Of a DNA stretch of 64,000 nt, positions 15,931 to 33,787 are shown piece after piece. Below the pieces are notes generated by a model. It saw only the letters and a program-made list of their open reading frames with translations, searched no databases and was not told the DNA's origin. This DNA is from Pseudomonadota bacterium (GTDB lineage Bacteria > Pseudomonadota > Gammaproteobacteria > Xanthomonadales > Rhodanobacteraceae). The translations under genes and the position numbers were made by a program. The DNA lies in the NCBI GenBank assembly GCA_018240505.1, contig JAFEFQ010000239.1:1-64000 (forward strand), in the 5' to 3' direction. How positions within the stretch are numbered: the stretch's first letter is position 1; each line of letters begins with the position of its first letter.

Positions 15931-16069
15931 AGAAAAAATGCCGGGCGCGATCGTTTTCATATCTTGCGCGCGAGGCGCGCGCAAGTCGCGCCCCTGCCAT
16001 CACTTTTTTGCGTCAGTTGATAATTTGATATCTTTTTGATATCTTGTTTTCAACCACTGGAGAGCCACC

Positions 16070-16936: not shown

Positions 16937-16951
16937 GCACCGGAGAAGGCC

Positions 16952-17212
16952 ATGGGCATTGAACAGCGCGAAATATGGTTTCCCGCAAAACGCTACGGCT
17001 GGGGCTGGGGACTGCCCGTGGCATGGCAGGGCTGGCTGGTTCTCGCCGGTTATTTTCTGCTCGCGACAGGTGGTGCCGGCATACTGCTGAGCCGACCGCA
17101 AACCGCCACATCCGCCATGGCGTTCATGGGCTACATTCTGCTGTTGACCCTCGCGCTGGTCGTCGTCTGCCGGGCCAAGGGCGAGAAACCGAAATGGCGC
17201 TGGGGCAAATAG
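16952..17212 (+). CDS. Small two-helix inner-membrane protein
   Basis: 86 residues, with a Trp-rich start (WFPAKRYGWGWGLPVAWQGW) and two hydrophobic helices at about 27-46 and 54-73, ending in a basic tail (AKGEKPKWRWGK). It starts 16 bp after the SPFH gene with GGAGAAGG as ribosome-binding site, so it is in the same operon and may be an SPFH partner. No recognised family. Confidence 0.75.
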   Translation: MGIEQREIWFPAKRYGWGWGLPVAWQGWLVLAGYFLLATGGAGILLSRPQTATSAMAFMGYILLLTLALVVVCRAKGEKPKWRWGK

Positions 17213-17254
17213 CCTTGCAACATGCAGGTTCGCCGGTCAAACGCATGAACCCTC

Positions 17255-17446
17255 ATGGCTGCTGAAAAAAAAGCCTACCCGCTGCGCATCAGCGCCGACG
17301 TGCTCGACGCCGTGCAGCGCTGGGCCGACGACGAACTGCGCAGCGTCAACGCGCAGATCGAATACGTTTTGCGCGACGCGCTGCGCAAAGCGGGGCGGAT
17401 CAAGGCACAATCCGCGCATGAGCCGCCCGAGCCCGACTCCGCCTGA
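17255..17446 (+). CDS. Arc-like ribbon-helix-helix protein
   Basis: 63 residues. The N-terminal strand [19 protein letters not shown] and the helix [18 protein letters not shown] match the Arc/MetJ-type ribbon-helix-helix fold, with the pattern YPLRI-polar-hydrophobic that contacts DNA and the RSxNAQIExxL helix typical of Arc homologues. It ends within the first 29 bp of the VanY-like gene, which is in another frame. It could regulate this operon or be an orphan antitoxin-like protein, but no toxin gene is adjacent. Confidence 0.78.
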
Positions 17447-17954
17447 CGACTTCGTAGCCCTCGCCTTTTCCCTCGGCGTGCCGCGCGACTACGGTCGCGT
17501 GCGCGGCCTGCGCCGCGTGCGCGAGCCGGAACGGCTGGCGGCGATCGGCCGCGACACGCAGGGGCGCGAGCAGTACCTTGCCCCGCGCGCCGCGCGCGCG
17601 TGGGCGCGCATGCGCGAGGCGGCGATGCGCGCGGGCGTGGAACTGGAAATCGTCTCCGCGTTCCGCGGCATCGAATACCAGCTCGGCATCCTCCGGCGCA
17701 AGCTCGAACGCGGACAGACGATGGACGAGATCCTGCGCGTCAGCGCAGCGCCGGGCTACAGCGAGCACCACACGGGCCGCGCGCTCGACATCACTACGCC
17801 CGGCTATGCCGCGCTCGAAGAGGAATTCGAACGCTCCCTCGCATTCGCCTGGCTGCGAAAAAACGCGAAGTCATACAAATTCTCCCTGAGCTATCCACGC
17901 GGCAATCGCCACGGCATCGTCTACGAGCCGTGGCACTGGTGCTGGCACGCGTAG
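17418..17954 (+). CDS. VanY/M15-type D-Ala-D-Ala carboxypeptidase
   Basis: A 178-residue M15B peptidase, which removes terminal D-Ala from peptidoglycan precursors or muropeptides using zinc. Family blocks are [18 protein letters not shown] (residues 79-96), [17 protein letters not shown] (109-125, with His and Asp zinc ligands) and the final [12 protein letters not shown], where EPWHW supplies the catalytic Glu and third His. No signal peptide is seen, so it may act in the cytoplasm on recycled peptides, or export may be undetected. It overlaps the ribbon-helix-helix gene by 29 bp. Confidence 0.87.
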
Positions 17955-17988
17955 CGGCGCGACTCGTCGCACGCGACGCTTCGCGTCG

Positions 17989-19332
17989 TCAGGAGGATTT
18001 CTTCGCCGCGCCGTCCAGCTTCTCGATCGTCGCCGACGACGGCCGTTCGCTAGCCTGCAGGCGCTTCGCCGCCGCTTCGGTCTCTCGCAGCACGCGCAGG
18101 ATATTGCCGGCGGCGAGCTTGGCGAGATCCGCGTCGTTCCAGCCGCGGCGCGCGAGTTCGACGAGCAACGCCGGGTACTTGTCGACGCCGTCGAGGCCCT
18201 GCGGCGTCGACGGAATGCCGTCGAAGTCCGAGCCGATGCCGACGCAGTCGATGCCGCAGACGTTGCGGATGTGCTCGATGTGGTCGGCCACCATCGCGAT
18301 CGTCACGGCCGGCATCGGATGCGCCTTGTCCCACTCGGCCAGCGCGGCCTTGGCGCGTTCGGGCTGGCCGATGTACAGGCCGGCGAACGGCGGCGCGTTG
18401 TAGCGCGTCTGCTCGGCGGCGCGATCGGCCTCCCAGCGCGCGCGCTCGGCCGATACATACGGTGGCGCGAAGTTGACCATGACGATGCCGCGGTTTTTCT
18501 TCACCAGTGCGAGCACGTCGTCGGGCACATCGCGGGGGTGATCGACCAACGCACGCGCGCTCGAATGCGAAAACATCACCGGCGCGGTCGAGACCGCGAG
18601 CGCGGCCTTCATCGTTTCCGGCGAGACGTGGCTCAGATCGACGAGCATGCCGAGGCGGTTCATCTCGCCGACCACGGCGCGGCCGAACGCGGTCAGGCCG
18701 TGATGCTTCGGCGTGTCCGTCGCCGAGTCGGCCCAGTCGTTGTTCTGCGAATGGGTCAGGGTCATGTAGCGCGCGCCGAGGGCGTACATCTGGCGCAGCG
18801 CAGGCAGAGAATTTCCGATCTGATGGCCGCCTTCGATGCCGATCAGCGAGGCGATGCGCCCGGCCTTGCACGCACGCAGCAGATCGTCCGCCGTGCCGGC
18901 CATTTCCATGTCGGTCGGATAGCGCGAGACCATGTTGTGCACGATGTCGATCTGCTCCAGCGTGGTCTGCACCGCGGCAGCGCCGGTCAACGAAGACGGA
19001 ATCCAGACCGACCAGAACTGGCCGCCGACATGGCCCTTGCGCAGACGCGGGATGTCCGTCATCAGCGGCATCCAGTCTTCGGACGTATCCGCGGGGCGCG
19101 GCAGCTTCAACGTGTCGGCGCGCAGGTCCACGCCATCGGCATTGCCGAAGCGCTCACGGATACCCCACGGCAGGTCGTTGTGTCCGTCGATCAGCGGCGT
19201 CGCCGCAAGCACGCGCTCGACCCGCGCGGCGAGCATGGCGTCGGTTTCGGCGGCGGCGAGCGGAGCACAGGCCGCGACGGCAGCGCAGGCGGCAAAGGCG
19301 TACTGGATAGTCGAACGCAGAGTGTTGTTCAT
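17989..19332 (-). CDS. Exported membrane dipeptidase, M19 family
   Basis: M19 (renal-dipeptidase-like) zinc enzymes hydrolyse dipeptides, including those with D-residues. The 447-residue protein has a signal peptide (residues 1-28, ending PLAAA) and a complete metal site: His51 and Asp53 in DGHNDLPW, the bridging Glu in GIEGGHQ, HSQNNDWAD, DLSHVS, SHSSAR and GIGSDFDG. It is the most 3' member of the minus-strand run that starts at 29839, 99 bp after a serine hydrolase gene. Unlike the second M19 protein at 28598-29839, it keeps all canonical ligands, so catalysis is expected. Substrate specificity is inferred from context only. Confidence 0.93.
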   Translation of the reverse strand: MNNTLRSTIQYAFAACAAVAACAPLAAAETDAMLAARVERVLAATPLIDGHNDLPWGIRERFGNADGVDLRADTLKLPRPADTSEDWMPLMTDIPRLRKGHVGGQFWSVWIPSSLTGAAAVQTTLEQIDIVHNMVSRYPTDMEMAGTADDLLRACKAGRIASLIGIEGGHQIGNSLPALRQMYALGARYMTLTHSQNNDWADSATDTPKHHGLTAFGRAVVGEMNRLGMLVDLSHVSPETMKAALAVSTAPVMFSHSSARALVDHPRDVPDDVLALVKKNRGIVMVNFAPPYVSAERARWEADRAAEQTRYNAPPFAGLYIGQPERAKAALAEWDKAHPMPAVTIAMVADHIEHIRNVCGIDCVGIGSDFDGIPSTPQGLDGVDKYPALLVELARRGWNDADLAKLAAGNILRVLRETEAAAKRLQASERPSSATIEKLDGAAKKSS

Positions 19333-19431
19333 GGTGTCTCGCGGTTGGCCAGGAAGTGGAACCCATCCTGGTGCGTTCGCCTCGCGCCGCGCAGGGCGGC
19401 ACGAAGCAAACAGAATCCCGGTTGGGTGCGC

Positions 19432-21006
19432 CTATTTTGACTTTTCCACCGGCGTAAATGACAAGTCCTGATAGTCGTAGCTGAAATCGGCGAGCGGCGA
19501 GACCGGCTTCAGCGTCACGCCGGTGATCTTGCCGTCCGCATCGAGGGCGAAAGTCACATAGGCCGGCTCGATCGTCTTGTCGGTGAAGCGCGTGACGAAG
19601 CTGTCGTACTGCCAGTGGTCTAGCGCGCCGCCCATGCGCGGCGTCGACTTGAACTCGATCGCAAGCCTGCCTTGCACCTGGCTGACTTCGATCCGGCCAT
19701 ACCAGGGATCGGCGTAGGTGCCCGTGTAGCGCGCGAGCGGCAGCGAGGGACCGACCTTGGCCGGCTTGGCCGCGGCGGTCTTGTACGCTTCGAGTGCCTT
19801 GGCCAGGCGTTCCTTCTTGTAGGCGATGAATTTCTCCGGCCAGTCGTTGGTCGGCACGCCGAGATAGTGGTCGAGCAGTTCGTAGAGCAGGCCGTACAGG
19901 ATTTCGCCGTCTTCACTGTTGATCTCGATCGCGAAACCGACCTGCTTGTCCGGCAGCAGCGCCACGACCGTCTTGAAGCCGAGCACCGCGCCGCCGTGCT
20001 TCAGGATTTTCGCGCCGCGATAATCCTGCACGTCCCAGCCGAGCGCATAGGTATTGAACATCGGCACGGCAAGCTTGAGCGAGTCCGGCAGGGGGTCGAC
20101 GGGCTGGAATACCTGCGGCGTCCACATTTCCTCGCTTTGTTTCGCCGAAAACAGGCGGCCTTCGCTGTCCGGCAACTTGCCGCGGCCGAGCTGGATCGAC
20201 AGCCAGCGCGCCATGTCGTTGGCGCTGACCGCAAGCCCGCCCGCGGGCGCGGCGGCGCGGCCGAGAACGTCGCGCTCGTCGAGACGCTCCTGCCTGCCGA
20301 CGCCGCGCAGACCGCCGTCCATGCGCGCATGCGGATAGGCGCGATCGGCGACCTTCCAGCGCACCTCGTCGTCGCTGGTCGAATGCAGCATGCCGGCCGG
20401 CTTGAACACGTCTTCGGCGACGAACCTCTCCCAGGTCTTGCCGCTGACCGCCTCGATGAGTTGCCCGGCAACCATGTAAAGCACGTTGTCGTAGGCGAAA
20501 CCGTAGCGGAAACTGGTCGCCGGCTTGAGGTAGCGCAGGCGTCGCACCGATTCTGCGCGCGAAAGGCTTCCGCGCGGCACCATCAGCAGATCGCCCTCGC
20601 CCAGGCCCAGCCCGCTGCGATGCACGAGCAGGTCGCGTATCGTGATCTCGCGCGTCACCCAGGGGTCGTACATCGCGAAACCCGGCAGGTGGTCGATCAC
20701 CTTGTCGTCCCAGCCGATCCTGCCGCGATCGACGAGCACGGCGAGCGCGGCCGTCGTCACCGCCTTGCCTGTGGATCCAGTCGGAAAGATCGTGTCGGCA
20801 TCGACCGGTTCGTTCGAGCCGAGTGCGCGCACGCCGAAGCCTTTCGCCATCGTCGCCTTGCCGTTTTCGACGATGGCCACGGCCATGCCGGGCACGCCGA
20901 TCTCCTTGCGCAGTTTTTCGACGCGCGCTTCGAAATCCGCCGGCGGCGCGGCGAAGGCAGAGGCGCCGAACAGCAGCGCACAGAACGATAAAACGGGTTT
21001 GTTCAC
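19432..21006 (-). CDS. Serine hydrolase, class C beta-lactamase/DD-peptidase fold, with DUF3471 tail
   Basis: A 524-residue exported protein with a signal peptide (first 19 residues). Catalytic motifs are STGK at 78-81, YDN at 172-174 and KHGG in the third-box position near residue 345. A C-terminal beta-barrel tail (about 425-524) resembles DUF3471. Such proteins act as esterases, D-aminopeptidases or DD-peptidases. The start is GTG at 21006 with a strong AAGGAGG 4 nt upstream, and GTGA overlaps the stop of the upstream YkvI-type transporter, which implies translational coupling. The context of dipeptidases and an epimerase favours a D-peptide substrate; that is inference. Confidence 0.88.
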   Translation of the reverse strand: MNKPVLSFCALLFGASAFAAPPADFEARVEKLRKEIGVPGMAVAIVENGKATMAKGFGVRALGSNEPVDADTIFPTGSTGKAVTTAALAVLVDRGRIGWDDKVIDHLPGFAMYDPWVTREITIRDLLVHRSGLGLGEGDLLMVPRGSLSRAESVRRLRYLKPATSFRYGFAYDNVLYMVAGQLIEAVSGKTWERFVAEDVFKPAGMLHSTSDDEVRWKVADRAYPHARMDGGLRGVGRQERLDERDVLGRAAAPAGGLAVSANDMARWLSIQLGRGKLPDSEGRLFSAKQSEEMWTPQVFQPVDPLPDSLKLAVPMFNTYALGWDVQDYRGAKILKHGGAVLGFKTVVALLPDKQVGFAIEINSEDGEILYGLLYELLDHYLGVPTNDWPEKFIAYKKERLAKALEAYKTAAAKPAKVGPSLPLARYTGTYADPWYGRIEVSQVQGRLAIEFKSTPRMGGALDHWQYDSFVTRFTDKTIEPAYVTFALDADGKITGVTLKPVSPLADFSYDYQDLSFTPVEKSK

Positions 21007-22115
21007 AAAGCCTCCTTTGCGACTGAACGGGTGCGTTGGCGCCACAGGCGCGCCACGCCGAACGTCATCAGCGGCAGCACGTAGACCACGAGAAAGATCG
21101 CGGCGAGCGCGCGGTAGCCCCTGGCGATCAGCGCGACGAGGCCGAAGCGGCCGGCAAGCAGCATGCAGCCGACGAGCAGCACGAGTGCGATCGCGAGGCG
21201 CGCGACCGGCGAAAGCGTCGCGCCGTGGCGCGCGCGCCAGGCCTTGTCGATGCGCTCGTTGATCGCGTGCACCGCGCCGGTGCCGCTTTCGAGCAGGGCC
21301 GCGAAGATCATGAGCTGGAACAACAGATGGAACAGCGGCAAGTTCAACTTCTGCAGGAGGAAGTCCGACGGCAGCGTCTCGTTCGCAATCTGCGGGTACC
21401 AGGCGACCATGCACACGAAGAACAGCAGCGCCGGCAGCATCGCCAGCGGACCGGCGATCGCGCCGGCGATCACCGCATCGCGCGTGCTGGTCAGATGGCG
21501 CAGCACCGGCAGGATCACGACGGCGCCGATGATGTTGTAGCTCGCGTACGTCAGCCCGCCCAGCGCCCAGCCTTCGCCGGAAACGGGGCTGGAGAAGCCC
21601 GCGAGGATGCGATCGCCGAAACGGGTGGCGGCGAACACGACGAACAGCGCGTACACCGCGTAGAGCAGAAACGACACGTATTTGAACAGGCGCTCGACCG
21701 AAGCATTGCCGAACGCGGTGAACAGCGTGATGCCCGCCATCAGCGCCAGCGTGCCGGCGATCCCGGGCAGGGCGAACATCGCCTCCCCTATCGCCCCCGC
21801 GGCCGCGCCGAACACGGCGAGGATCAGGATCACGAACAGGACGTAGGCCGCCTCGAAAACAACCCAGCCCGGCCCGAGCAGGGCGCGCACGAAGCTCAGA
21901 TAATCCCTCGCGTCGTGCAGGCGCGCGAAAACGAATGTCGCGATGCAGACCGCGCTCCAGATCAGCGTCGCCAGCAGCATCCCGGCGACGCCGCCCCAGG
22001 GTCCGCTCGGCATGAAAAATTCGGCGAGTTCGCGCCCGGTCGCATAGCCGCCGCCGATGACGACGGCCTTGAATGCGAAGCCAGGCAGAAGAAAACGTTG
22101 GAACCAGGACGACAT
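21003..22115 (-). CDS. YkvI-type multi-helix membrane transporter
   Basis: A 370-residue integral membrane protein with about ten hydrophobic helices. It starts WFQRFLLPGFAFKAVVIGGGYATGRELAEFF, a glycine-rich segment typical of the YkvI/LeuT-fold group of putative amino-acid or ion symporters. Other marks are GLTYASYNIIGAVVILPVL near 195-213 and the conserved LLFQLMIFAALLESGTGAVHAINERI near 265-290. The transported compound is not known for the family. Coupled to the following serine hydrolase by a 4-nt overlap, it is a candidate importer for amino acids or dipeptides released by the peptidases of this cluster. Confidence 0.78.
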   Translation of the reverse strand: MSSWFQRFLLPGFAFKAVVIGGGYATGRELAEFFMPSGPWGGVAGMLLATLIWSAVCIATFVFARLHDARDYLSFVRALLGPGWVVFEAAYVLFVILILAVFGAAAGAIGEAMFALPGIAGTLALMAGITLFTAFGNASVERLFKYVSFLLYAVYALFVVFAATRFGDRILAGFSSPVSGEGWALGGLTYASYNIIGAVVILPVLRHLTSTRDAVIAGAIAGPLAMLPALLFFVCMVAWYPQIANETLPSDFLLQKLNLPLFHLLFQLMIFAALLESGTGAVHAINERIDKAWRARHGATLSPVARLAIALVLLVGCMLLAGRFGLVALIARGYRALAAIFLVVYVLPLMTFGVARLWRQRTRSVAKEAL

Positions 22116-22166
22116 GATCGTGTGCTCAACCGCGGGTCGACTGGAAAGGCATCGCCGTGGCCGACC

Positions 22167-23156
22167 TCAGCCCCAGATCTCGGGGCCGCACCAGATCGTG
22201 CCGTCGGCATAGCGCGCACGCGGCTCGGGATCGTTGGCGATGAGCAGCGGTCCGTCGAGGTCGACGTAGTCGCAAATCTGGCCGAGCACGAACGCCGGCG
22301 CCATCGACAGGCTCGTGCCGCACATATTGCCGACCATGACGCCGAGGCCGAGCCGCCGCGCCTCGCGCGCGATCGCAAGGCCCTCGGTGAGGCCGCCGCA
22401 TTTGTCGAGCTTGATATTGACGACATCGAAGCGGCCGACCAGGCCGGCCGTGTCGGCGAGCGTCAGCGCCGACTCATCGGCCGCAATCGGAATCGGCGAG
22501 ACATAACCTTCAAGATCGGCCTCGCTCCCGCGCTGCAGCGGCTGCTCGAGCAGCGACACGCGCGCCGCGACGAGGCCGCGCACGAGCGCGTCGACATCGC
22601 CGATGGCGTAACCGCGGTTCGCGTCGACGCCGAGCCATGCATCGGGGCACGCCGCGCGCACTGCGTCGACACGCGCAAGATCGAGATCGAGTTCGCCGGT
22701 CAGTTTCAATTTCAGCGAACGTGCGCCGACGAATCTGCGCGCACCCGCGGCCATCGTTTCCGGGGCTTCGGCGCCGAGGGTGAATGTCGTCACCAGCGGC
22801 CTGACGGGAGGCATGCAGGCCAGCGCCAAGACGCTGCGGCCGCCGCGCTTCGCGTCGAGATCCCACAGCGCACAGTCGACCGCGTTGCGTGCGCCGCCTG
22901 CAGGCATCAATTCCTGCAGGCCGGCGCGGTCGATGCCGGATTCGATTTCGGCGCGACATCCCTCGATCGTCGCCACCAGGCTCTGCGAAGTATCGCCGAG
23001 ATAGTAGACGCCCGCGGCCTCGCCGCGACCGCGATGCGCGCCTTCTTCGAGCGTGACGATCACCGCATCCTGCTTCTCGAACACGTATCCGGAAATGCGG
23101 AACGGCGCGACGAAGCGCAGTTGCTCGACTGCGATATGCAATTTGCGCCGCGGCAT
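22167..23156 (-). CDS. Enolase-superfamily dipeptide epimerase (L-Ala-D/L-Glu epimerase or DgcA-type racemase)
   Basis: A 329-residue enolase-superfamily enzyme with a complete muconate-lactonizing-type active site: Lys149/Lys151 (KLK), metal ligands Asp178 (VDAN), Glu204 (LEQP) and Asp227 (ADES), and the opposite base Lys249 in NIKLDKCGG. The late DLDG block is typical of L-Ala-D/L-Glu epimerases. Such enzymes convert the D-Glu of stem-peptide fragments to L-Glu. Related racemases named DgcA act on N-acetyl-D-Glu made by DgcN, and a DgcN homologue lies three kilobases upstream in the same run. Its ATG overlaps the upstream stop (TGATG). Confidence 0.87.
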   Translation of the reverse strand: MPRRKLHIAVEQLRFVAPFRISGYVFEKQDAVIVTLEEGAHRGRGEAAGVYYLGDTSQSLVATIEGCRAEIESGIDRAGLQELMPAGGARNAVDCALWDLDAKRGGRSVLALACMPPVRPLVTTFTLGAEAPETMAAGARRFVGARSLKLKLTGELDLDLARVDAVRAACPDAWLGVDANRGYAIGDVDALVRGLVAARVSLLEQPLQRGSEADLEGYVSPIPIAADESALTLADTAGLVGRFDVVNIKLDKCGGLTEGLAIAREARRLGLGVMVGNMCGTSLSMAPAFVLGQICDYVDLDGPLLIANDPEPRARYADGTIWCGPEIWG

Positions 23157-25126
23157 CAGAAGTTCGTCCCGAAGCGGAACAGGTTGAGCACGAGTGCCGT
23201 CCACAGCACGACCAGCGCCGACAACACGAGCGCGATGCTCCAGGTCTTCGCCGGCCAGCGGCGACCGCCGCGCCACACCGCGACCAGATTCCACAGCAGC
23301 GCGAGGAAGCCGCCGACAAAGACGACAAAGCCGAACAACTGCGCGAACCAGAGCAGACCGTCGACGCTCGAACTCATGTTGCCGACGTCCTTTAGCAGGA
23401 AGACAAAGACCCCGGTCCAGACGAGCACGCCGGCAACGATCGCAGTCGAGGCGAGCCTGCTCCAGTGGAACGCGGCCAACGACGTACCCGCGAGAGCGAG
23501 CTTCGCCCCGTAGCGGCGCCGCACCAGCGCCGCGATCGGCCAGGTGATTGCGGTCAACAGCAGGGCGATCAGGCTCGCGCAAAGCAGCGGCAGCACCAAA
23601 GCACTGTCCCGGTACCAGGGTGCGCGGTCGAACACGGTGAACGGCGAGACCATGTCGAAACTCCAGCGCACGACCTTGCCGTCGACGACTTTCGCCGCGA
23701 GCCGCTGATGGCTGTCGTCGTCGCGCCAGAGGAACGGCGCGATCTCGGTCCAATGCCGCGGCTTGCCGTTGAGGCCTGGAAACGGCACGACGATACCGCC
23801 TTTGTCGTCTGCGGCGACTTTCATCTGGGTGAGGAAATTCGCCGCGGCGAGGAAGTTGGAATACGAGCCGCGCGATCCGTCCCAGGTACCGGCGATCAGC
23901 GCCGCGTGCTCCTTCGCGGTCCTCTCTTCGACCTTGCCGTCCTTCGGCGTGACGTCGGGGAAATAGCGGTCGACGAAATCGGCGAACAGGGCGATGCGCA
24001 ACTGATGCGCGGCGCCTTCCTTGCCTGCGCTGTTGAACGAGACATAGAAACCCGTGTTCTCCTTCAGCAGCAGATGCAGGGAAGTATGGAAATAATCCGT
24101 GTCGCCCAGATGCGCGATGATCTCGCGACCATTGAGGTTGGTTTCGAAGAAGCCCAATTCCATGCGGTTCAGCGGCGGCAGGATATCGAGCGGGCTGTTG
24201 TGCATCTTTTCGGCCGTGTCGGCACGCAGGATGCGATGGCCGTCGTACTCGCCGTTGTTGAGGTGCGCGAGCATGAAATGCGCCATGTCCTCGCCGGTCG
24301 AGGACAGCGCGCCGGCCGGTGCCTGCGCGACGAACTCGAACGGCTTCGCCTCGTCCGAGCCCAGTTCGTAGCCCTTCGACATCGACGGCGCGAGATCGGA
24401 CGGCAGCGGCTGCCTGAAGCTCGAATGCCGCATGTCGAGCGGTGCGAAGATGTGCTTGTCCATGTAGTCGTCGAAGCTTTCGCCCGACACGCGCTGCACG
24501 ACATAGCCCGCGAGCGTGGTCGCGTAGTTCGAATACGCGGGAGTCGTGTCCGGCGCGAATACGCGCTTGGGCACCCAACGGCTGACCACGGTCTTGAGCG
24601 CCGGCATGGTTTCCGCGGAGTGGGTCAGGATGTCCTTGACCTGCTCCTCGAAGCCGGCCGCGTGCTGCATCATCTGCCGCATCGTGACCGGCTTGCCGTC
24701 GCGTTCGGGAATCTTGAAGTCCAGGTACTGGTTGACGTCGGCATCGAGATCGATCCTGCCCTGCTCGACGAGCTGCATCACCGCGGTCCAGGTGAACAAC
24801 TTCGATACCGAGCCCGGGCGGAACAGCGTCGTCTTCGGATCGACCGGCCTGCGTGCGGCGACGTCGGAATATCCGTAACCGCGCTCGCTCAGGATCTGCC
24901 CGTCCTTGACCACCGCGACGACGGCGCCGGCGATGTCACCGGTCGCGAGCGCGTAAGGCATGTAACCGTCGAGCCAGGCGTCGAGATCCGCCTTCGTCAG
25001 CACGACGGCGCCGGCTTCGGCCATCGGTGGCGGCGACGCGACGACAGGGTCGGCCGGCGTCTGCGCCGACAGCGATACGGTCGCGAGCGCGGAAAATGCC
25101 GCAGCGAGCCATCTTTTCTTGTGCAT
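23156..25126 (-). CDS. Serine hydrolase (beta-lactamase fold) with C-terminal membrane helices
   Basis: A 656-residue protein. It has a signal peptide (MHKKRWLAAAFSALATVSLSAQ), then a class C beta-lactamase/D-aminopeptidase domain with SVSK at 106-109, YSN at 198-200 and a HLGD third box near 315. A beta-rich middle domain follows (about 400-500) and then about four C-terminal transmembrane helices (about 500-655: LLCASLIALLLTAITWPIAA, AGVLVWTGVFVFLL, LFGFVVFVGGFLALLW, ALVLSALVVLWTALVLNL). This periplasmic-domain plus membrane-bundle layout occurs in serine hydrolases of proteobacteria and Bacteroidetes. GAGAGGAAC precedes the ATG. A 163-bp gap separates it from the dgcN-like gene, so a second promoter is possible. 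Confidence 0.88.
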   Translation of the reverse strand: MHKKRWLAAAFSALATVSLSAQTPADPVVASPPPMAEAGAVVLTKADLDAWLDGYMPYALATGDIAGAVVAVVKDGQILSERGYGYSDVAARRPVDPKTTLFRPGSVSKLFTWTAVMQLVEQGRIDLDADVNQYLDFKIPERDGKPVTMRQMMQHAAGFEEQVKDILTHSAETMPALKTVVSRWVPKRVFAPDTTPAYSNYATTLAGYVVQRVSGESFDDYMDKHIFAPLDMRHSSFRQPLPSDLAPSMSKGYELGSDEAKPFEFVAQAPAGALSSTGEDMAHFMLAHLNNGEYDGHRILRADTAEKMHNSPLDILPPLNRMELGFFETNLNGREIIAHLGDTDYFHTSLHLLLKENTGFYVSFNSAGKEGAAHQLRIALFADFVDRYFPDVTPKDGKVEERTAKEHAALIAGTWDGSRGSYSNFLAAANFLTQMKVAADDKGGIVVPFPGLNGKPRHWTEIAPFLWRDDDSHQRLAAKVVDGKVVRWSFDMVSPFTVFDRAPWYRDSALVLPLLCASLIALLLTAITWPIAALVRRRYGAKLALAGTSLAAFHWSRLASTAIVAGVLVWTGVFVFLLKDVGNMSSSVDGLLWFAQLFGFVVFVGGFLALLWNLVAVWRGGRRWPAKTWSIALVLSALVVLWTALVLNLFRFGTNF

Positions 25127-25289
25127 GGTCGTTCCTCTCACAGCGATCGGTTGCTTGCCTTTCCCGTCATTTCCGCGGATCCGTACTTCCCGGCCTTTCC
25201 TCGAGCGGCGTTGCGCGAGGCACCGGGCTTCCGCAGTGGCGATGCGGCTTTTGCACACTGTCGACGGCGGATTGCGTTTGTCGATGCGC

Positions 25290-26333
25290 TCATGCAAGAC
25301 AGGCATCGACCAGTTTTTCGAATTCCTCGCCGCCGCGAACCGGATCGGCCACGGCCAGCTTCAGCCGCGCGCTCGCGTGCGCCAGCCATTCGCGCGCCTC
25401 GCCTTCGCCCAGACCCGACGTATTCACGCTGACGCCCGCGCAACGGATCCCTGCATTCGTGCGCCTGCCCATGTACAGATTGAGATCGATCGCCTCCTCG
25501 AGGCTCGGCAGCGCGTAGTCCGGATAACCCGCCACGTGCTCGCGCCCGGCTTCGTGGCAGACCACGATCACATCGGGTTGGCTGCCGTGCAGCAGACCGA
25601 GCGAAACGCCAGCGTAGGCCGGATGGAACAGCGAACCCTGCCCTTCGATCACGTCCCAGTGCGCGGGCGGCGCGTCGGGACTGAGCATCTCGGCCGCGCC
25701 TGCTTCGAAGTCGGAAATCACCGCGTCCATCGGCATGCCGGAACCTGCGATCAGGATGCCGGTCTGCCCGGTCGCGCGAAAATCGGCGTCGACTCCGCGC
25801 GCAGTGAACGCACGCGCCAGCGCAAGCGCCGTATACTTTTTCCCGAGCGCGCAGTCGGTGCCGACCGTCAGCAGGCGCTTGCCGCCGCGTTTGCGCCCGG
25901 TTGCAATCGGAATATTCGGCGGCGGCACGCGCACGTCGATCAGGCGGCGACCGCAGCTTGCGGCCGCAGCCGCAAGCTGCGGCACGTCGCCGAGCCGGCG
26001 GTGCATGCCGCTGACCAGATCGAGTCCGGATTCGAGTGCTTCGAGCAAGAACGGTATCCAGCCCGTGGCGATCGCGCCGCCGACGTTGGCGACGCCGATG
26101 ACCATGCCACACGCGCCGCGCAAGCGTGCTTCCTTCGGCGTGAGCCGCGGCAGGCCGGTCGTCACCGTCGCCGCACTCGTCGACCACTCACCGATGCAGC
26201 GATCCGGCGCCCAGTCGCGCAGGCCGAACGCGGTCTTCGCATAGGTCGTCTCGGTCGTATCACCGAGGAACAGCAGGTACGGCGACGGCAGTTTCTCGAT
26301 CGCGGAGTCGCGGGTCAACGGTTTGGTTTGCAT
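25290..26333 (-). CDS. dgcN: DUF1611 protein, DgcN-type D-glutamate N-acetyltransferase homologue
   Basis: A 347-residue DUF1611 protein. The N-domain starts SPYLLFLGDTTETTYAKTAFG. The C-domain has the family's nucleotide/CoA-type loop GTDCALGKKYTALALARAF near 175-193, GQTGILIAGSGMPMDAV near 210-226 and DVIEGQGSLFHPAYAGVSLG near 246-265. DgcN members are reported to acetylate D-glutamate as the first step of a D-Glu catabolic route, partnered by the enolase-family racemase DgcA. The assignment rests on recalled family motifs. Position between the TonB receptor and the serine hydrolase/epimerase pair fits D-Glu salvage. Confidence 0.75.
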   Translation of the reverse strand: MQTKPLTRDSAIEKLPSPYLLFLGDTTETTYAKTAFGLRDWAPDRCIGEWSTSAATVTTGLPRLTPKEARLRGACGMVIGVANVGGAIATGWIPFLLEALESGLDLVSGMHRRLGDVPQLAAAAASCGRRLIDVRVPPPNIPIATGRKRGGKRLLTVGTDCALGKKYTALALARAFTARGVDADFRATGQTGILIAGSGMPMDAVISDFEAGAAEMLSPDAPPAHWDVIEGQGSLFHPAYAGVSLGLLHGSQPDVIVVCHEAGREHVAGYPDYALPSLEEAIDLNLYMGRRTNAGIRCAGVSVNTSGLGEGEAREWLAHASARLKLAVADPVRGGEEFEKLVDACLA

Positions 26334-26381
26334 GCATGTTCCTTCAAGGCTTTCCCCTTGCGCAGTCCCCTGAAACGGTAC

Positions 26382-28598
26382 TCAGAATTTCGCATCGAAA
26401 CCGACGCCGATCACGCGCGGCTGCAGCGGCGTGGCGCCGACGCGACTGATCGCACCGGTCGGGCTGGTCGGATCGATCAGCGGCGTCATCGCCACATAGC
26501 TGCCTTTGTTGGTCAGGTTCTTGATGAAAAAGCGCAGAGTCCAGCGATCGTTGGCGATGTCGGCGTTGAGATCGAACGCGGTGTAGCTCGGCAGCAGGAA
26601 CGAGCGCGGATCGTGGGTGACGCCGGTCGTGCGCTCGCCCGTATGGCGCAGGCCGCCACCGAAGCGCGCGCTCCAGTTGTTGCCGAGGTCGAATGTGTAG
26701 TCTGCGGTTGCCGAAGCATTCCATTTCGGCACGAACGGCAGACGGTCGCCATCGAGCCCGCCGATCGAAGGGATGGCCTCGGACAGGCTCGCGTCGGCAT
26801 AGGCCGCGTTCAACCCCAGGCGCAGGCCGCTCACCGGCGTGTACACGGCGGAGAACTCGAAGCCCTTGCTGCTTGCCTTGCCGCCGTTGACCGCATAGTT
26901 GACGGTACCGTTGGTCGTCAGCACCTGGATCTTCTTCCAGTCGATGTTGTACACGGCGGCATCCAGGATGAGGCGACGGTCGGCCAGAATCGTCTTGATG
27001 CCGGCCTCGTAGCTGGTCAGCGTGGACGAGCCGACCTGGGGCGGCACGTCCGGCAGCGCGAGGTTCGGCCCGCCCGCCTGATAACCGGTGGCGACGCGCG
27101 CATACAACATCGTGTCCGTATCCAGATGCCAGCGCGGGCTGACCGACCAGGTGCGCACGTTCTCCGCCGAGCTTCCCGGGGTTTCTCCCGACGGCAGTAT
27201 CGGGCTCTGGACGATCTGCGTGAATTCCTGCTCGTTGCGCGCCCAGCGCAAGCCGGCGGTGATGTCGAAGTTCGGATTGAATTTCCAGGTGACGTCGCCG
27301 AACAACGCGTACTCCTTGTACGTCGTCGGCAAGCCCGTGATCGCGAGCGGATCAAGACCCGCGATCGGCGTGCCGTCGAATTCCTGCGCGCTGAGAATCT
27401 GGTATTTCCTGCTGTTCTCGTTCGTATAGAACGTGCCGACGAGCCACTCGAATCGATCGTCGGGCTTCGAAGCCAGGCGGAATTCCTGCGTGGTCTTGTA
27501 CAGGCTGAGCTTCTGGTCGAACGTCGAAAGCCCTGGCGAGGGCAGGCCGAACAGCGGAAACAGCAGGCCGTACTGGAGCGAGACATCGGTAAGCGAATGC
27601 ACGGTCGTGTGCGAATAGCTCGACGCCGAGACGAAATCGGCAAAACCGACATCCCAATTCACCGTCGCGCTGAAGTAGTCGAGCTCGCGCTTGCTCGCTT
27701 CGGGTACGTAGTTGTCGTTGCGGTCTTTGCCGTAGATCGGTCCCAGTGTCGCCGGATCGAGCGCGACCGTGGTGTTGCTGTCGGCATCGACCTTGTACTT
27801 GATCGCGGACAGCGACACGGCAAGGTCGTCGTTCGCCTTCCAGCGCAGTGCGACGCGGCCGCCGGTCTGCGCATAGCCGTTCTCGTCCTTCTCGCCCGTG
27901 CGCACGTTGTCGACGAAGCCCGGCGTCTGTTGGCGCGCGACGCTCGCGGTCACGGCGAGCTGTCCGGGCAGCAGCGGCAGGTTGACGCTCGCGCGAGCAC
28001 CGTAGCCGAGATCGCCCGAACGCGCCATGCTCGACACGTCGCCGCCGACGCGCACCGAAGTCTGTTCGAGATCGGGCTTGCTGGTCGTGTACTGGATCAC
28101 GCCGCCGAGCGCGCCCGCGCCCCAGAGCGTGCCTTGCGGACCGCGCAGGACCTGGAAGCTGTCCACGTCGTAAGGCAGCAGATCGAGCACGTCGCCGGCC
28201 GCGGTCGCATAGAACGAGCTCGAACCGAGCGGCGTATCGTCGATGTACATCGCGACGGTGGAGTTTGCACCGAGCGGCGTGATGCCGCGGATGCCGATCG
28301 AAGCCAGCCCCGGCGTGCCGGTACTGCTCATCTGCAAGCCGGGAATGTAGCTGGCGTAGTCGGACAGCTCGGTCGCGTGCATCTGCTCGAGCTGTTCGTT
28401 GCCGATCACGCTGATCGAGATCGGCACGCTCTGCACGTCCTCGCTGCGCTTCTGCGCGGTCACGATGATGGGGGCGAGCGCAGCGGCCTCTTTTTCGGCA
28501 GGCTCGATTGCATCGCCGTCCGCGGTATGGGCGTAACTCGACAGCAATGCGAGCACGCTGACCAGGGTTGGGATCGCGAAACGGGTTCTTGAAGTCAT
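26382..28598 (-). CDS. TonB-dependent outer-membrane receptor
   Basis: A 738-residue TonB-dependent receptor. A signal peptide (residues 1-25) precedes a TonB-box-like segment and the plug: APIIVTAQKRSEDVQSVPIS, then LSDYASYIPGLQM, RGITPLG and VAMYIDDTPLG. The barrel runs to a C-terminal aromatic residue (GVGFDAKF), as required for outer-membrane assembly. It most resembles the iron-complex/sphingomonad-type receptors that take up sugars, siderophores and aromatic or peptide compounds. The ATG overlaps the upstream M19 stop (TGATG). Linkage to dipeptidases and DgcN/epimerase homologues suggests peptide or muropeptide uptake. Confidence 0.93.
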   Translation of the reverse strand: MTSRTRFAIPTLVSVLALLSSYAHTADGDAIEPAEKEAAALAPIIVTAQKRSEDVQSVPISISVIGNEQLEQMHATELSDYASYIPGLQMSSTGTPGLASIGIRGITPLGANSTVAMYIDDTPLGSSSFYATAAGDVLDLLPYDVDSFQVLRGPQGTLWGAGALGGVIQYTTSKPDLEQTSVRVGGDVSSMARSGDLGYGARASVNLPLLPGQLAVTASVARQQTPGFVDNVRTGEKDENGYAQTGGRVALRWKANDDLAVSLSAIKYKVDADSNTTVALDPATLGPIYGKDRNDNYVPEASKRELDYFSATVNWDVGFADFVSASSYSHTTVHSLTDVSLQYGLLFPLFGLPSPGLSTFDQKLSLYKTTQEFRLASKPDDRFEWLVGTFYTNENSRKYQILSAQEFDGTPIAGLDPLAITGLPTTYKEYALFGDVTWKFNPNFDITAGLRWARNEQEFTQIVQSPILPSGETPGSSAENVRTWSVSPRWHLDTDTMLYARVATGYQAGGPNLALPDVPPQVGSSTLTSYEAGIKTILADRRLILDAAVYNIDWKKIQVLTTNGTVNYAVNGGKASSKGFEFSAVYTPVSGLRLGLNAAYADASLSEAIPSIGGLDGDRLPFVPKWNASATADYTFDLGNNWSARFGGGLRHTGERTTGVTHDPRSFLLPSYTAFDLNADIANDRWTLRFFIKNLTNKGSYVAMTPLIDPTSPTGAISRVGATPLQPRVIGVGFDAKF

Positions 28599-29839
28599 CA
28601 CTTCCTCTCCTCTTGTTTCTTGTCTGCTTGCGTTTTGTCCTGCGGCCTGTCCTCCTCCGGCGCCTTTCCGGATTTGGCCGGCCGCGGCACCCAGCTTTCG
28701 CCGAGCAGGCGGCGGAAATTGCCGCCGAGTACGGCCTGGATGTGTTCGCTGCCGTAGCCGCGGCGCAGCAGCGCCGCGGTCAGGTCGTAGACCTTGAATG
28801 GATGATCGAAGCCGTCGGTATCGATCCTGTCGCGGAAGGCGTAGCTCGACTTGTACGCCGCCTTCAGTTGCTTGTACTGGTCCGGCGGCATCTTGTCGTA
28901 GCCGATCAGGTCCGAGTCCGAACCGATGCCGACGTGCTCGACGCCGACCAGCTTGGCGACGTGGTCGATGTGGTCGACGATGTCTTCGATCGTCGTCGGG
29001 TCCTTGTCCTTGACGAACATGCGCACGCCGGTGATGCCCATGACGCCGCCTTTCGCGGCGAGCTTCCGGATCGCCTCGTCGGTCTTCAGGCGCGGATGGT
29101 TGTTGAGCGCGCGGCAGTTCGAATGCGTGATCGCGATCGCGCGCGGCGACAGCTCGATCGCGTCGAGCGTGGTGCGGTCGCCGCAATGCGAAACGTCGAT
29201 CAGCATGCCGATCTCGTTCATCGCCTTGATGATCTCGACGCCGTAGTCGCTGACGCCGCCGTCGATGCGGTCGGTCGAACCGCCGCCGATCAGGTTCTGC
29301 GAGTTGTAGGTGAGTTGCGCGCAGCGCAGACCGAGCTGGTGGAAGGCTTTGACGTCCCTGGCTTCGCGAAACTCGTCCGCGTTCTGCAGGCCCATGACCA
29401 CCGCGACCCTGCCCTGCTTCTTCGCCTTGTCGAGATCGGTCGCGGTGCCAACCAGGGTGAACACGTCCTGGTTGCGGCCGACGAAGCCGTTCCATGCGGC
29501 GAGGAAGGTAAGCGCGTCGGCGTAGGCACTCGCGCCGCCGACGCCGATCGAGTTGTGGAACCCGGTGATGCCGCAGGAACGGAACATTTCCGCGTCGGCT
29601 GCGCTGAGCGGATCGGCATAGGCCTCGGGGCGGAAATCGATCTTGAGCGGGGCGAGCATGTCGATCACGAGCGAGCGCTCGACGAGATCGACCACTTTCT
29701 TCGGATATTTCTTTCTCGCCTGCATCGCGGGTGCGATTGCGGCGAAGCCTGGCCCGGGCAGCAACAGCGACGATGCGGCAATGCCCGCTGCCGCGAGCAG
29801 GCGGCGACGCCCCGTCTGTATGGCCTGCTGCGATGACAT
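28598..29839 (-). CDS. M19-fold dipeptidase homologue lacking the first metal-site motif, Tat-like signal
   Basis: A 413-residue M19-family protein with a twin-arginine-like leader (TGRRRLLAAAGIAASSLLL), a basic C-terminal tail (KKQEERK) and the later family motifs: DVSHCGDRT, THSNCRALNNHPR and GIGSDSDL. The usual N-terminal His-x-Asp (here SLVIDMLAPL) and the bridging Glu (here VMGLQNADEF, where GIEGGHQ is normal) are replaced. It may bind one metal, use other ligands or be non-catalytic. A subset of proteobacterial M19 proteins seems to share this pattern, so it may mark a subfamily. It is the first gene of the minus-strand run. Confidence 0.85.
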   Translation of the reverse strand: MSSQQAIQTGRRRLLAAAGIAASSLLLPGPGFAAIAPAMQARKKYPKKVVDLVERSLVIDMLAPLKIDFRPEAYADPLSAADAEMFRSCGITGFHNSIGVGGASAYADALTFLAAWNGFVGRNQDVFTLVGTATDLDKAKKQGRVAVVMGLQNADEFREARDVKAFHQLGLRCAQLTYNSQNLIGGGSTDRIDGGVSDYGVEIIKAMNEIGMLIDVSHCGDRTTLDAIELSPRAIAITHSNCRALNNHPRLKTDEAIRKLAAKGGVMGITGVRMFVKDKDPTTIEDIVDHIDHVAKLVGVEHVGIGSDSDLIGYDKMPPDQYKQLKAAYKSSYAFRDRIDTDGFDHPFKVYDLTAALLRRGYGSEHIQAVLGGNFRRLLGESWVPRPAKSGKAPEEDRPQDKTQADKKQEERK

Positions 29840-29874
29840 GCTCGTCTCCCAACGATACTGTCTCTTCTCAGGCC

Positions 29875-29914
29875 ACTGTAATCCTGATTAGAAAATTGTC
29901 AACAATAATTTTCT
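29875..29914 (-). promoter_or_regulatory. Promoter and palindromic operator of the D-peptide cluster
   Basis: On the minus strand TTGACA (29902-29897) and TACAGT (29880-29875) are 16 bp apart, 36-63 bp upstream of the first M19 ATG. A palindrome with perfect 8-bp arms, AGAAAATT (29890-29897) and AATTTTCT (29907-29914) with a 9-bp spacer, covers the -35 element. It is AT-rich in a GC-rich region and lies next to a divergent XRE-cupin regulator gene, a likely binder. Confidence 0.65.
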
Positions 29915-29928
29915 GAATAGGATGATAG

Positions 29929-29956
29929 TTGACGCAACGACGCACGCGCGTATGCT
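29929..29956 (+). promoter_or_regulatory. Promoter of the XRE-cupin regulator
   Basis: TTGACG (29929-29934) and TATGCT (29951-29956) are separated by 16 bp on the plus strand, 49 bp before the ATG at 30005. The operator palindrome ends 15 bp upstream of this -35, so one bound regulator could control both directions. Confidence 0.55.
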
Positions 29957-30004
29957 TGGCGCGGCGCTGAAGAAACGCGGCGCCTTGCCATCACCGGAAG
30001 CTGC

Positions 30005-30700
30005 ATGGATTCCAAGACCCACCACCCGACGCTAGGCAGCGTGTTGCGCTCGCTACGCACGCGGCATGGATGGACGCTCAAGGAAATGAGCGAGCGCGTG
30101 GATATTCCCGTGTCGACCCTGTCCAAGGTCGAGCACGATCGCCTCACGCTGACGTATGACAAGTTGCAGCAGCTCAGCCAACGCCTCGACATGCGCATGG
30201 CCGACCTGTTCTCCGATCCAGACGCGGCGGCCGAACCCGTGGTCACGGCGCGCCGAAGCCTGGGGTTCGTCGACGACGCGGTGCGCGTCACCACGAAGAA
30301 CTACGACTACTACTATCTGTGCACGGAGTTGCGCCGCAAGCGCATGATCCCCGTCGTCGGCTACGTGCGCGCGAAGAGCGTGCACGAATTCGGCGAACTG
30401 GTGCGTCACCCCGGCGAGGAATATGTCTACGTGCTCGAGGGCGCGATCAAGGTGCACACCGAGTTCTACGATCCGGTCGTGCTGCGCGCAGGCGAATCGA
30501 TCTACATCGACAGCAGCATGGGGCACGCCTACGTTGTCGAAGAGTGCGACGAGGCGATGATCCTAGGCATCATGTCGAGCGCGGACGAAAGCCTGATGCA
30601 ATCGCTGATGAGCCTGCACGCGGATACCGGCGCCCCTCGAGCTGCCGGCACCGCGAAACGCAAGACCAAACCCGCGAAAGCGCGCACGCGGAGCAAATAG
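30005..30700 (+). CDS. XRE-family regulator with C-terminal cupin domain
   Basis: A 231-residue transcription factor. Residues about 10-65 form an XRE helix-turn-helix (LGSVLRSLRTRHGWTLKEMS, VDIPVSTLSKVEHDRLTLTY, LQQLSQRLDMRMADLF). Residues about 115-195 are a cupin barrel (HPGEEYVYVLEGAIKVHTEF, LRAGESIYIDSSMGHAYV), followed by a basic Lys/Arg tail. XRE-cupin proteins such as PuuR and SutR sense small amines, amino acids or sulfur compounds through the cupin. The gene diverges from the M19/TonB/DgcN run over a shared 165-bp region with a palindrome, so it is probably that run's regulator. The ligand is unknown. Confidence 0.88.
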   Translation: MDSKTHHPTLGSVLRSLRTRHGWTLKEMSERVDIPVSTLSKVEHDRLTLTYDKLQQLSQRLDMRMADLFSDPDAAAEPVVTARRSLGFVDDAVRVTTKNYDYYYLCTELRRKRMIPVVGYVRAKSVHEFGELVRHPGEEYVYVLEGAIKVHTEFYDPVVLRAGESIYIDSSMGHAYVVEECDEAMILGIMSSADESLMQSLMSLHADTGAPRAAGTAKRKTKPAKARTRSK

Positions 30701-30769
30701 CGCTCTGCGCCCCCGTCTTCCGCCACCCGGCCTTCACCGCAATGGCGGAAACGATTCTTCGCAGAGCGC
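30700..30769. terminator. Nested palindrome between convergent genes, possible bidirectional terminator
   Basis: Outer perfect 10-bp arms GCGCTCTGCG (30700-30709) and CGCAGAGCGC (30760-30769) enclose inner 8-bp arms TTCCGCCA (30718-30725) and TGGCGGAA (30743-30750). The element spans the gap between the stop codons of the XRE-cupin and acylase genes exactly. No U-run is present. Confidence 0.5.
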
Positions 30770-33628: not shown

Positions 33629-33655
33629 GACCCCCTCCCGATGACAGGTTGCGAA

Positions 33656-33674
33656 ATCAAAACGAGCGTTTGAT
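33656..33674. promoter_or_regulatory. Operator-like palindrome upstream of the acylase gene
   Basis: ATCAAA (33656-33661) and TTTGAT (33669-33674) with a 7-bp spacer lie 28-46 bp before the acylase ATG. It is AT-rich relative to its surroundings. The sequence differs from the 29890 palindrome, so a different regulator is likely if it is functional. Confidence 0.35.
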
Positions 33675-33787
33675 ATCGAGTATGCGCCGCCGTGGTTGCG
33701 GCGCCCAGTGCCGTCGCGAAGTTTCGATTCCGCGCCGCAGCAAAGCGCCGCGGCGCACCGGAATCGCGGGTCTTTCCGCTTGCGCGG

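Follow-up and report, generated by a model that had tools for sequence, protein, structure and literature searches.

Which D-amino acid is handled by an operon that places homologues of DgcN and DgcA, the enzymes of a D-glutamate (D-Glu) pathway, beside peptidases, an outer-membrane receptor and a permease? The question is raised by a 64,000-nucleotide stretch of DNA (the window; positions 1 to 64,000 of contig JAFEFQ010000239.1, assembly GCA_018240505.1, Rhodanobacteraceae), part of contig C154 in a draft genome of 3.51 Mb that is 86% complete (G000 in our numbering). Eight minus-strand genes of the window (17989-29839) face a divergent gene for an XRE-cupin regulator (Table 1). An initial annotation had proposed that this run takes in peptidoglycan stem-peptide fragments and turns their D-Glu into L-Glu. 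We lean, if only somewhat, towards reading it as an XRE-cupin-repressed catabolic operon for D-amino-acid-containing peptides, with an acetylation-racemisation step. Judging from residue patterns, we hold that its D-amino acid would mainly not be glutamate, because the racemase is without the basic lid of canonical DgcA and Escherichia coli YcjG and because a canonical pair is present elsewhere in the genome.

The best NCBIfam names for the two window proteins are indeed DgcN and DgcA. Both nevertheless score below the equivalog cut-offs (445.1 bits against 480 for NF041892, 351.9 against 400 for NF042940), and the YcjG model scores lower on DgcA (234 bits, cut-off 343). A second, canonical dgcN-dgcA pair lies elsewhere in the genome (C176:3078-5041; L085, L181) beside a LysR-family gene (PF00126, PF03466), and there both proteins exceed the cut-offs (DgcN 521.5 versus 480 bits; DgcA 433.2 versus 400). 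Two S12-type matches are found downstream of this canonical pair.

To place the window among its relatives we used 80 DgcN-anchored loci (L-numbers), the best 80 of 551 from a scan of a genome collection with the window DgcN. They came from Xanthomonadales, Steroidobacter relatives, Sphingomonadales and a few others, including two Verrucomicrobia bins; since they were picked by likeness to the window DgcN, their counts are not natural frequencies. Gene content was counted mainly in the 62 of these loci that were at least 18 kb long, compared with ten window proteins. A less biased view came from 121 genomes of the same order, searched from DgcN, M19, the regulator and the YkvI-type transporter, plus 274 genomes elsewhere in the class (transporter only). 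DgcN occupied 41 places in the 121 genomes: 7 canonical (over cut-off), 7 operon-like (at least 60% identity; G000, the window itself, with G053, G039, G055, G081, G029 and G044), 21 intermediate and 6 distant. Neighbourhoods were inspected for the first three classes, some of them ended by contig ends.

The DgcA residue alignment held 69 operon-type, 14 intermediate and 32 canonical rows together with YcjG; rows shorter than 250 residues were excluded, and the counts omit the distant L089 and L112. K149, K151, D178, E204, K249, D251 and K252 were identical in all rows including YcjG (69/69 in the operon type), and presumably play the roles known for such residues in the enolase superfamily. 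The window protein has the marks of the MLE-type enolase superfamily (KxK, the metal Asp/Glu ligands and the second Lys) as well as the fold: its AlphaFold2 (AF2) model has a mean confidence (pLDDT) of 94.1 and matches 4gfi with Z 46.8 (the structure alignment comprised 39 rows, 38 of 71 matches and the window). The DLD motif is also kept in operon-type DgcA. The lid, in contrast, has changed. Position 23 is Arg in 32/32 canonical rows and YcjG and Gly in 67/67 operon rows that are not gapped at this position. At position 26, canonical rows and YcjG have Arg or Lys where operon rows have Phe (65) or Ile (2), and at position 52 canonical rows and YcjG have Arg where operon rows have Tyr. Canonical and operon types further differ at positions 49-50 (PY versus GV), 55 (Glu versus Asp), 181 (Glu versus Gln in 67/69; the window has Arg), 209 (Ala versus Arg in 67/69) and 277 (Cys versus Asn in 67/69). 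With G23, F26 and Y52, the window DgcA has none of the three basic residues that canonical DgcA and YcjG share in the lid. The glutamate carboxylate of L-Ala-D/L-Glu epimerases is bound by an Arg from the 20s loop, and the changed lid counts, up to a point, against D-Glu.

DgcN differs between the types as well. Position 49 is Gln in 24/24 canonical rows and Glu in 87/87 operon rows, and position 42 is Arg in 23/24 canonical rows and Ala in 79/87 operon rows. A quick DgcN tree split 45 operon rows from the canonical ones with support 96; it took in 72 of 113 rows, its inner branches were weakly supported (21 of 68 starred), and it was used for the operon/canonical split only. The DgcN of L105 (62% identity) fell inside the operon clade even though its surroundings yielded none of the other operon genes, and that of L110 (61%), accompanied by DgcA alone, fell outside. 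A handful of residues, together with the regulator, separates the canonical from the operon types.

Many of the 80 loci keep much of the set. The 62 longer loci contained BlaA in 60, the regulator in 57, DgcA in 57, the YkvI-type transporter in 52, BlaB in 44, the TonB-dependent receptor in 40 and any M19 protein in 31; an S12 hydrolase was present in 60/62, and the regulator, an S12 gene, DgcA, the transporter and the receptor occurred all together in 30/62. By comparison, twenty 20-kb control stretches from 14 related genomes, taken at hand-chosen round and hence non-random positions, gave no match for M19, the receptor, DgcN, the transporter, the regulator or the acylase, two for each S12 protein and one for DgcA. 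The DgcN strand was shared by the transporter in 51/52, DgcA in 59/60, the receptor in 41/41, BlaA in 70/75 and M19a in 18/21 assigned matches, while the regulator lay on the opposite strand in 48/60 (62 loci). Neighbouring genes were often tightly spaced or overlapping: the median was -4 nucleotides (nt) for DgcN-YkvI (33/38 within 100), M19a-TonB receptor (12/12) and YkvI-BlaB (19/26), -0.5 for BlaA-DgcA (26/36) and +11 for receptor-DgcN (35/40), with wider spacings elsewhere (e.g., BlaA-DgcN +83, DgcA-receptor +79). The closest relative among the loci, Rudaea sp. 3F27F6 (L038; DgcN 81% and M19b 95% identical), has the gene order of the window (XRE<, M19a, receptor, DgcN, BlaA, DgcA, YkvI, BlaB, M19b), with two additions, a POT-family gene separating DgcA from YkvI and a PRK09061-type amidohydrolase following M19b; in the window, the 51 nt between DgcA and YkvI leave room for no POT gene.

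In the same-order genomes, DgcN-type proteins were found in 30/121 (7 over cut-off) and M19 proteins in 76/121. Five of the seven operon-like DgcN genes, the window counted, adjoined regulator, S12, DgcA and TonB receptor matches; a transporter lay within 6 kb in 3/7 and an M19 gene was present in 4/7, and in G055 DgcN and a transporter fragment sit near the ends of two short contigs. Canonical loci had XRE, YkvI, M19 or receptor matches in 0/7 and S12 matches in 3/7, among them the C176 pair. Intermediate loci had S12 and receptor matches together in 8/21 and the transporter in 0/21, and only one of the 21 (G004) had regulator (weak, 35%) and M19 (31%) matches. Searched from the regulator, the 121 genomes gave 12 matches: those with at least 65% identity, four in number (G000, G053, G055, G081), all lie within 10 kb of an operon-like DgcN, and among the eight weaker ones DgcN was within 10 kb in G039 and for one of two in G004. 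Searched from the transporter, they gave 14 matches; three of the four with identities of at least 59% sat no more than 6 kb from DgcN, and G084 alone among the ten weaker matches had DgcN on the same contig (~11 kb away). Elsewhere in the class, the transporter matched in 5/274 genomes. The gene set is thus strongly linked, yet sporadic and breakable, and the co-conservation proposed at first is borne out: the genes are not scattered, exceptions aside. We found no paper on this gene set in searches, not every one of them directed at the set itself, that were limited to open-licence PubMed Central.

Some occurrences stand apart. Two Verrucomicrobia bins (L024, L025) hold parts of the set, with DgcN 70-72% identical to that of the window, which reflects either transfer or mis-binning. 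L065 has many members within one 21-kb stretch in opposite orientations, and perhaps represents two copies of the system. In G377:C6 (L194) and G027:C46, weak regulator relatives occur without an adjacent DgcN, the G027 one adjoining an M19 gene; these are possible sister systems. A sphingomonad form (L020, L022, L023, L034, L043, L045, L052, L056, L058, L074) combines a regulator of lower identity (38-43%), encoded on the operon strand, with an alpha/beta hydrolase and additional amidohydrolases; a related motif lies upstream in 9/10 (all but L022).

Table 1 Features of the operon and its control region in the window.
Feature	Position	Strand	Evidence
M19a, M19-family protein	28598-29839	minus	PF01244, 258 bits
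TonB-dependent receptor (TBDR)	26382-28598	minus	PF00593, PF07715
DgcN-like protein (DUF1611), operon clade	25290-26333	minus	NF041892, 445.1 bits; nearest PDB entry 7xrj; tree
BlaA, S12 serine hydrolase with about four C-terminal transmembrane segments	23156-25126	minus	PF00144
DgcA-like enolase-superfamily racemase/epimerase with changed lid	22167-23156	minus	NF042940, 351.9 bits
YkvI-type transporter, LeuT-type fold	21003-22115	minus	predicted structure
BlaB, S12 serine hydrolase with DUF3471 and a signal-like start	19432-21006	minus	PF00144, PF11954
M19b, membrane-dipeptidase homologue	17989-19332	minus	PF01244, 377 bits; nearest PDB entry 3id7, 387 bits
XRE-cupin regulator	30005-30700	plus	PF01381/PF07883 over cut-off
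Mirrored operator/promoter region, 55 bp	29875-29929	both	two copies of ATTTTCTRAWYAGGAT, one per divergent promoter
Conserved motif TTGACAATTTTCTAATCAGGA, including the operon -35 box	29882-29902	minus	40/47 loci

All genes named in the initial annotation are present, as are the overlaps it listed (GTGA at YkvI/BlaB; TGATG at M19a/TonB receptor and at BlaA/DgcA). Its set of ten proteins, however, comes to eight operon genes and one regulator. The palindrome noted between the divergent genes is real and larger than described, with arms of 23 nt (29875-29897 and 29907-29929) that are 78% complementary and 9 nt apart. The sole minus-strand sigma70-like promoter match in 17900-30800 lies here (29902-29875, TTGACA-16-TACAGT); both strands of that interval gave 3 matches against 1.4 expected, and one for the regulator adjoins that of the operon.

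Among 47 loci whose opposite-strand regulator has 59% identity or more, 40 carry a motif around TTGACAATTYTCYRATYRGGAYCATTA upstream of the operon (score threshold 20 bits); the background maximum was 10.3 bits in 1380 dinucleotide-preserving shuffles. The seven misses were L033, L040, L042, L049, L051, L053 and L065, and a relaxed search for the core placed a copy on the operon strand in 43/48, the window included. The matrix behind the 40/47 was trained on the same loci that it scored, a point addressed by splitting the loci by class: trained on alphaproteobacterial loci it found 24/26 of the others, and in reverse 16/21, all on the operon strand. In the window genome, 86% complete, exactly one site exists at up to 3 mismatches, at this operon, and a larger regulon there was rejected on that account. 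The window, L006 (Rudaea cellulosilytica DSM 22992), L008 and L038 each have a second, mirrored core at a distance of 26-27 nt, which accounts for the palindrome. The cores of the window are 27 nt apart, and the second falls inside the regulator's own promoter match, which suggests self-control.

The regulator combines helix-turn-helix (HTH) and cupin domains, is divergent from the operon and has a palindrome at the promoter, and it is likely a local repressor that would bind the predicted operator. Regulation of the PuuR polyamine type was rejected (NF007408 at 42.2 bits versus a cut-off of 211). XRE-cupins are described as local repressors in the available portions of PMC7901475, PMC10965056 and PMC12724383, where PsdR is linked to dipeptides and DbuR to D-branched-chain amino acids; PMC10965056 also gives PsdR a wider regulon.

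Among the hydrolases, the S12 motifs were compared in rows of more than 400 residues and 250 bits. BlaA has SxSK, YSN and HxG in 78/78 rows each, and BlaB has SxxK in 41/41, YDN in 41/41 and HxG in 40/41 with one gap. Alkaline D-peptidase and D-Ala-D-Ala carboxypeptidase appear among the PDB matches of either protein, along with esterases and beta-lactamases, and those of BlaB further include ClbP, D-aminopeptidase and D-amino-acid amidase. It is plausible, from these matches, that BlaA and BlaB act as D-stereospecific peptidases. BlaB matches ClbP at E ~1e-21 (ClbP-type entries 7mdc, 3o3v, 4e6x); it has DUF3471 and no transmembrane part. BlaA has a C-terminal transmembrane part, as we take ClbP to have, but the 60 PDB matches listed for BlaA do not include ClbP.

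The two M19 proteins, both initially called dipeptidases, fared differently. M19b keeps the ligand motifs (LIDGHND, IEGG, DLSH, FSHS, SDFD), which presumably serve as in other M19 enzymes, and its nearest structure, 3id7, we take to be Sco3058, an enzyme that prefers a D-residue at the C-terminus. In M19a, VIDML and xQN replace HxD and the bridging Glu in 21/24 aligned rows, the other three being weak matches (29-33% identity), one of them with Glu; M19a may catalyse another reaction. All four hydrolases have signal-like starts as read by eye, that of M19a (RRxLL) being Tat-like; a hydrophobicity scan flagged only the starts of M19b and BlaB, and none such in DgcN or DgcA. The only two M19 genes found in this 86% complete genome both sit in the operon. 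M19 proteins of a third type, marked by HLDTP (where aligned), xENSY and GADWDGG and 28-32% identical to M19b, occur near the set in 14 loci (L014, L018, L030, L054, L057, L063, L065, L068, L069, L070, L072, L073, L076, L081).

The YkvI-type protein had no Pfam or NCBIfam match at E 0.001, and its label comes from the earlier naming and the predicted fold. Its AF2 model (pLDDT 92.4, predicted template-modelling score 0.89; the alignment comprised 41 rows, 40 of 63 matches and the window) is of LeuT type and comes closest to APC amino-acid permeases. The best structural match was 9a52 (YcsG, an integrative model; Z 30.1 over 346 residues, root-mean-square deviation 3.4 A), followed by LAT2/BasC/Asc1 (Z 27 to 28) and many APC chains (Z 24-28). 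NRAMP and NSS chains also reached Z 23-26, and NRAMP tops Foldseek's own ranking, so the substrate class cannot be read from the fold. Several neighbours recur in relatives, defined as clusters in at least 5 loci from a simple gene caller. A POT symporter gene was present in 21/80 loci, 21/21 genes on the operon strand; a PRK09061-type amidohydrolase in 34/80, 32/38 genes on that strand (match 207 of the 340-bit cut-off); and Xaa-Pro-dipeptidase-like, S15 and S9 peptidases lay beside the operon in 15, 8 and 5 loci. These neighbours speak for peptides. LD-carboxypeptidase, NlpC/P60, AmpG and murein amidase were not identified among the 12 recurrent families other than those of the window itself, one of the 12 having no match at all.

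Around the operon, a VanY-type D-alanyl-D-alanine carboxypeptidase gene (17418-17954; PF02557, 132 bits) adjoins the operon end convergently. It was set aside as an operon member: although adjacent, VanY is not among the families seen in at least 5 loci. On the other side, a 952-residue penicillin-amidase-family acylase with a weak PvdQ match (30770-33628) is convergent with the regulator, and it too was set aside as a part of the system (relatives in only 2/62 loci). Farther away, positions 9313-14064 encode a 1583-residue protein that is rich in RCC1 repeats and also has a bacterial Ig-like domain. No Rfam match reached gathering scores in 16000-34000, and an intrinsic terminator for the operon was discarded as a candidate, with 9 terminator-like sites against 9.7 in shuffles.

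Taken together, we infer the substrates, the order of steps, the location of the proteins, repression and induction as follows. The TonB receptor would bring a peptide across the outer membrane, where the two S12 hydrolases and the M19 protein or proteins would cleave it in the periplasm. The LeuT-fold permease would import the products, joined in some relatives by a POT peptide symporter, after which the DgcN-like enzyme would acetylate the freed D-amino acid and the DgcA-like enzyme would racemise the N-acetyl compound to the L form. As a bolder proposal, which we put forward tentatively and with more doubt than confidence, a second DgcN/DgcA branch (Xanthomonadales, Steroidobacter relatives, Sphingomonadales) may turn neutral or hydrophobic D-amino acids into L forms by acetylation and racemisation. 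It would do so within a complete outer-membrane-to-cytoplasm D-peptide locus, under one XRE-cupin repressor sensing the D-amino acid or its N-acetyl form, with M19a, its metal site incomplete, recruited to a different reaction.

Several observations weigh against the reading favoured here, a D-peptide operon whose amino acid is mainly not glutamate. A Bacteroides enzyme (B. theta, 3iji/3ijq), solved with L-Ala-D-Glu according to the entry titles, has T23 and Y52 and keeps only R26, which implies that D-Glu requires neither R23 nor R52, and Arg209 of operon-type DgcA could bind an acid. The dipeptide epimerase of E. faecalis (3jva) has Ile26, Arg209 and Gln181; in light of these two lids, position 26 carries most weight in the D-Glu argument. 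The operon-type lid is also largely common to intermediate DgcA (G49 14/14, Y52 13/14, N277 14/14; position 26 Trp in 7, Phe in 6, Cys in 1), though the transporter is absent from 21/21 and the regulator and M19 from 20/21 of the intermediate loci. The lid change is therefore older than, or independent of, the operon. Intermediate DgcN, however, keeps Q49 (17/17) and partly R42, so DgcN and DgcA did not change in one step. As to linkage, DgcA is absent from 5 of the 62 loci, the regulator from 5, the transporter from 10, this TonB receptor from 22 and any M19 protein from 31. The G029 and G044 DgcN (61-62% identity) stand without the operon, alone or with DgcA only. The G039 transporter is 20 kb from DgcN, and that of G377 (64%) lies beside a weak XRE match, a TonB receptor and amidohydrolases, the DgcN genes of G377 being on other contigs. 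Finally, no deacetylase is found within the operon.

Some of these points favour the original proposal, in which stem-peptide fragments are scavenged and D-Glu becomes L-Glu by DgcN/DgcA or by L-Ala-D/L-Glu epimerisation. The best model matches are DgcN and DgcA, lid Arg 23 and 52 are dispensable in the Bacteroides enzyme, a VanY gene adjoins the operon, and DgcN-DgcA is, in the available part of PMC10845958, very likely the main D-Glu route of Shewanella WP2. We nonetheless regard this proposal as unlikely: the genome has its separate LysR-dgcN-dgcA locus over the cut-offs, both window proteins fall below theirs, and the lid, without its three basic residues in the window, is changed in 67/67 operon-type DgcA. 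Stem peptides as food gained no positive support either, with neither a hydrolase nor an importer specific to murein recognised among the 12 recurrent families and VanY not recurrent. Of the initial annotation, the data back co-conservation, a single regulator, gene overlaps and a set of parts suited to D-amino-acid peptides (import, periplasmic hydrolysis, uptake and racemisation), whereas L-Glu made from D-Glu as the product is not supported.

It is conceivable, though we think it quite improbable, that D-residue peptides are the food and that the DgcA-like protein is an epimerase for neutral or hydrophobic dipeptides, the DUF1611 protein modifying something else. The DgcA model does resemble 3jva, 3rit, 3q45 and 3deq, enzymes of several specificities (Z 39.5 to 42.2). 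3jva has Ile26 and, in common with the operon type, Arg209 and Gln181 (Arg181 in the window), the DLD motif is kept, and a Thermotoga enzyme accepts hydrophobic dipeptides (PMC13338154, as far as the available text goes). Against this, 4gfi is closest in both sequence and fold, the DgcA family model outscores the epimerase model, and DgcA accompanies DgcN in 57/62 loci. A beta-lactam or N-acyl-peptide degradation island, finally, would bring together the S12 enzymes, M19 and the penicillin-amidase-family gene adjoining the regulator; the S12 proteins match class C beta-lactamase models, and a class A beta-lactamase gene recurs in 5/80 loci. We consider it very improbable, given that the class C model scores far under its cut-off, that the third S12 motif is HxG, and that acylase relatives occur in 2/62 loci at 25 to 26% identity, the gene itself being convergent to the regulator. 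The XRE-cupin-repressed operon for D-amino-acid-containing peptides thus remains the reading we favour.

That operon shares features with several known systems. It has the two families of the DgcN-DgcA D-glutamate pathway (NF041892, NF042940; PMC12363236, PMC10845958, as available in part), together in 57/62 loci and with the racemase catalytic residues kept, but with scores below the curated cut-offs and changed lid residues; compared with the canonical pair of its own genome, it has an XRE-cupin gene instead of a LysR-type one, plus peptidases, a receptor and a permease. The E. coli ycjG/mpaA murein-peptide locus is alike in the idea of D-residue peptide use, and the DgcA-like protein is 40% identical to YcjG, but the YcjG lid (R23, R26, P49, Y50, R52, Y53, E55) is not kept in operon-type DgcA. 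In E. coli, ycjG adjoins mpaA with pgrR and mppA nearby; nothing alike was identified among the recurrent neighbours, which were not searched for these by name. In the available text of PMC12724383, DbuR/dbuABC of Pseudomonas putida likewise has an HTH and cupin regulator divergent from a D-amino-acid operon, with a palindrome near the promoter; it differs in its oxidase route and ABC-annotated transporter, and peptidases, DgcN and DgcA are absent from the operon described there. PsdR-mdpA-dppA3 of Pseudomonas aeruginosa similarly pairs an XRE-cupin local repressor with peptide transport and a metallo-dipeptidase gene, but the PsdR site, TTAAGN5CTTAA, is unlike the motif reported here, and the portions of PMC10965056 and PMC7901475 available mention no D-amino-acid enzymes for it.

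D-amino acids are reported to form part of recalcitrant dissolved organic matter, and the substrates named for the DgcN/DgcA route are D-Glu and its kin (PMC12363236, PMC10845958, both from the parts available). A DgcN/DgcA branch for other D-amino acids, if true, would open a second route into this chemistry and combine receptor, peptidases, permease and regulator in a single unit. It would also serve as a warning that not every pair of a DUF1611 protein and an enolase-superfamily enzyme stands for D-Glu catabolism.

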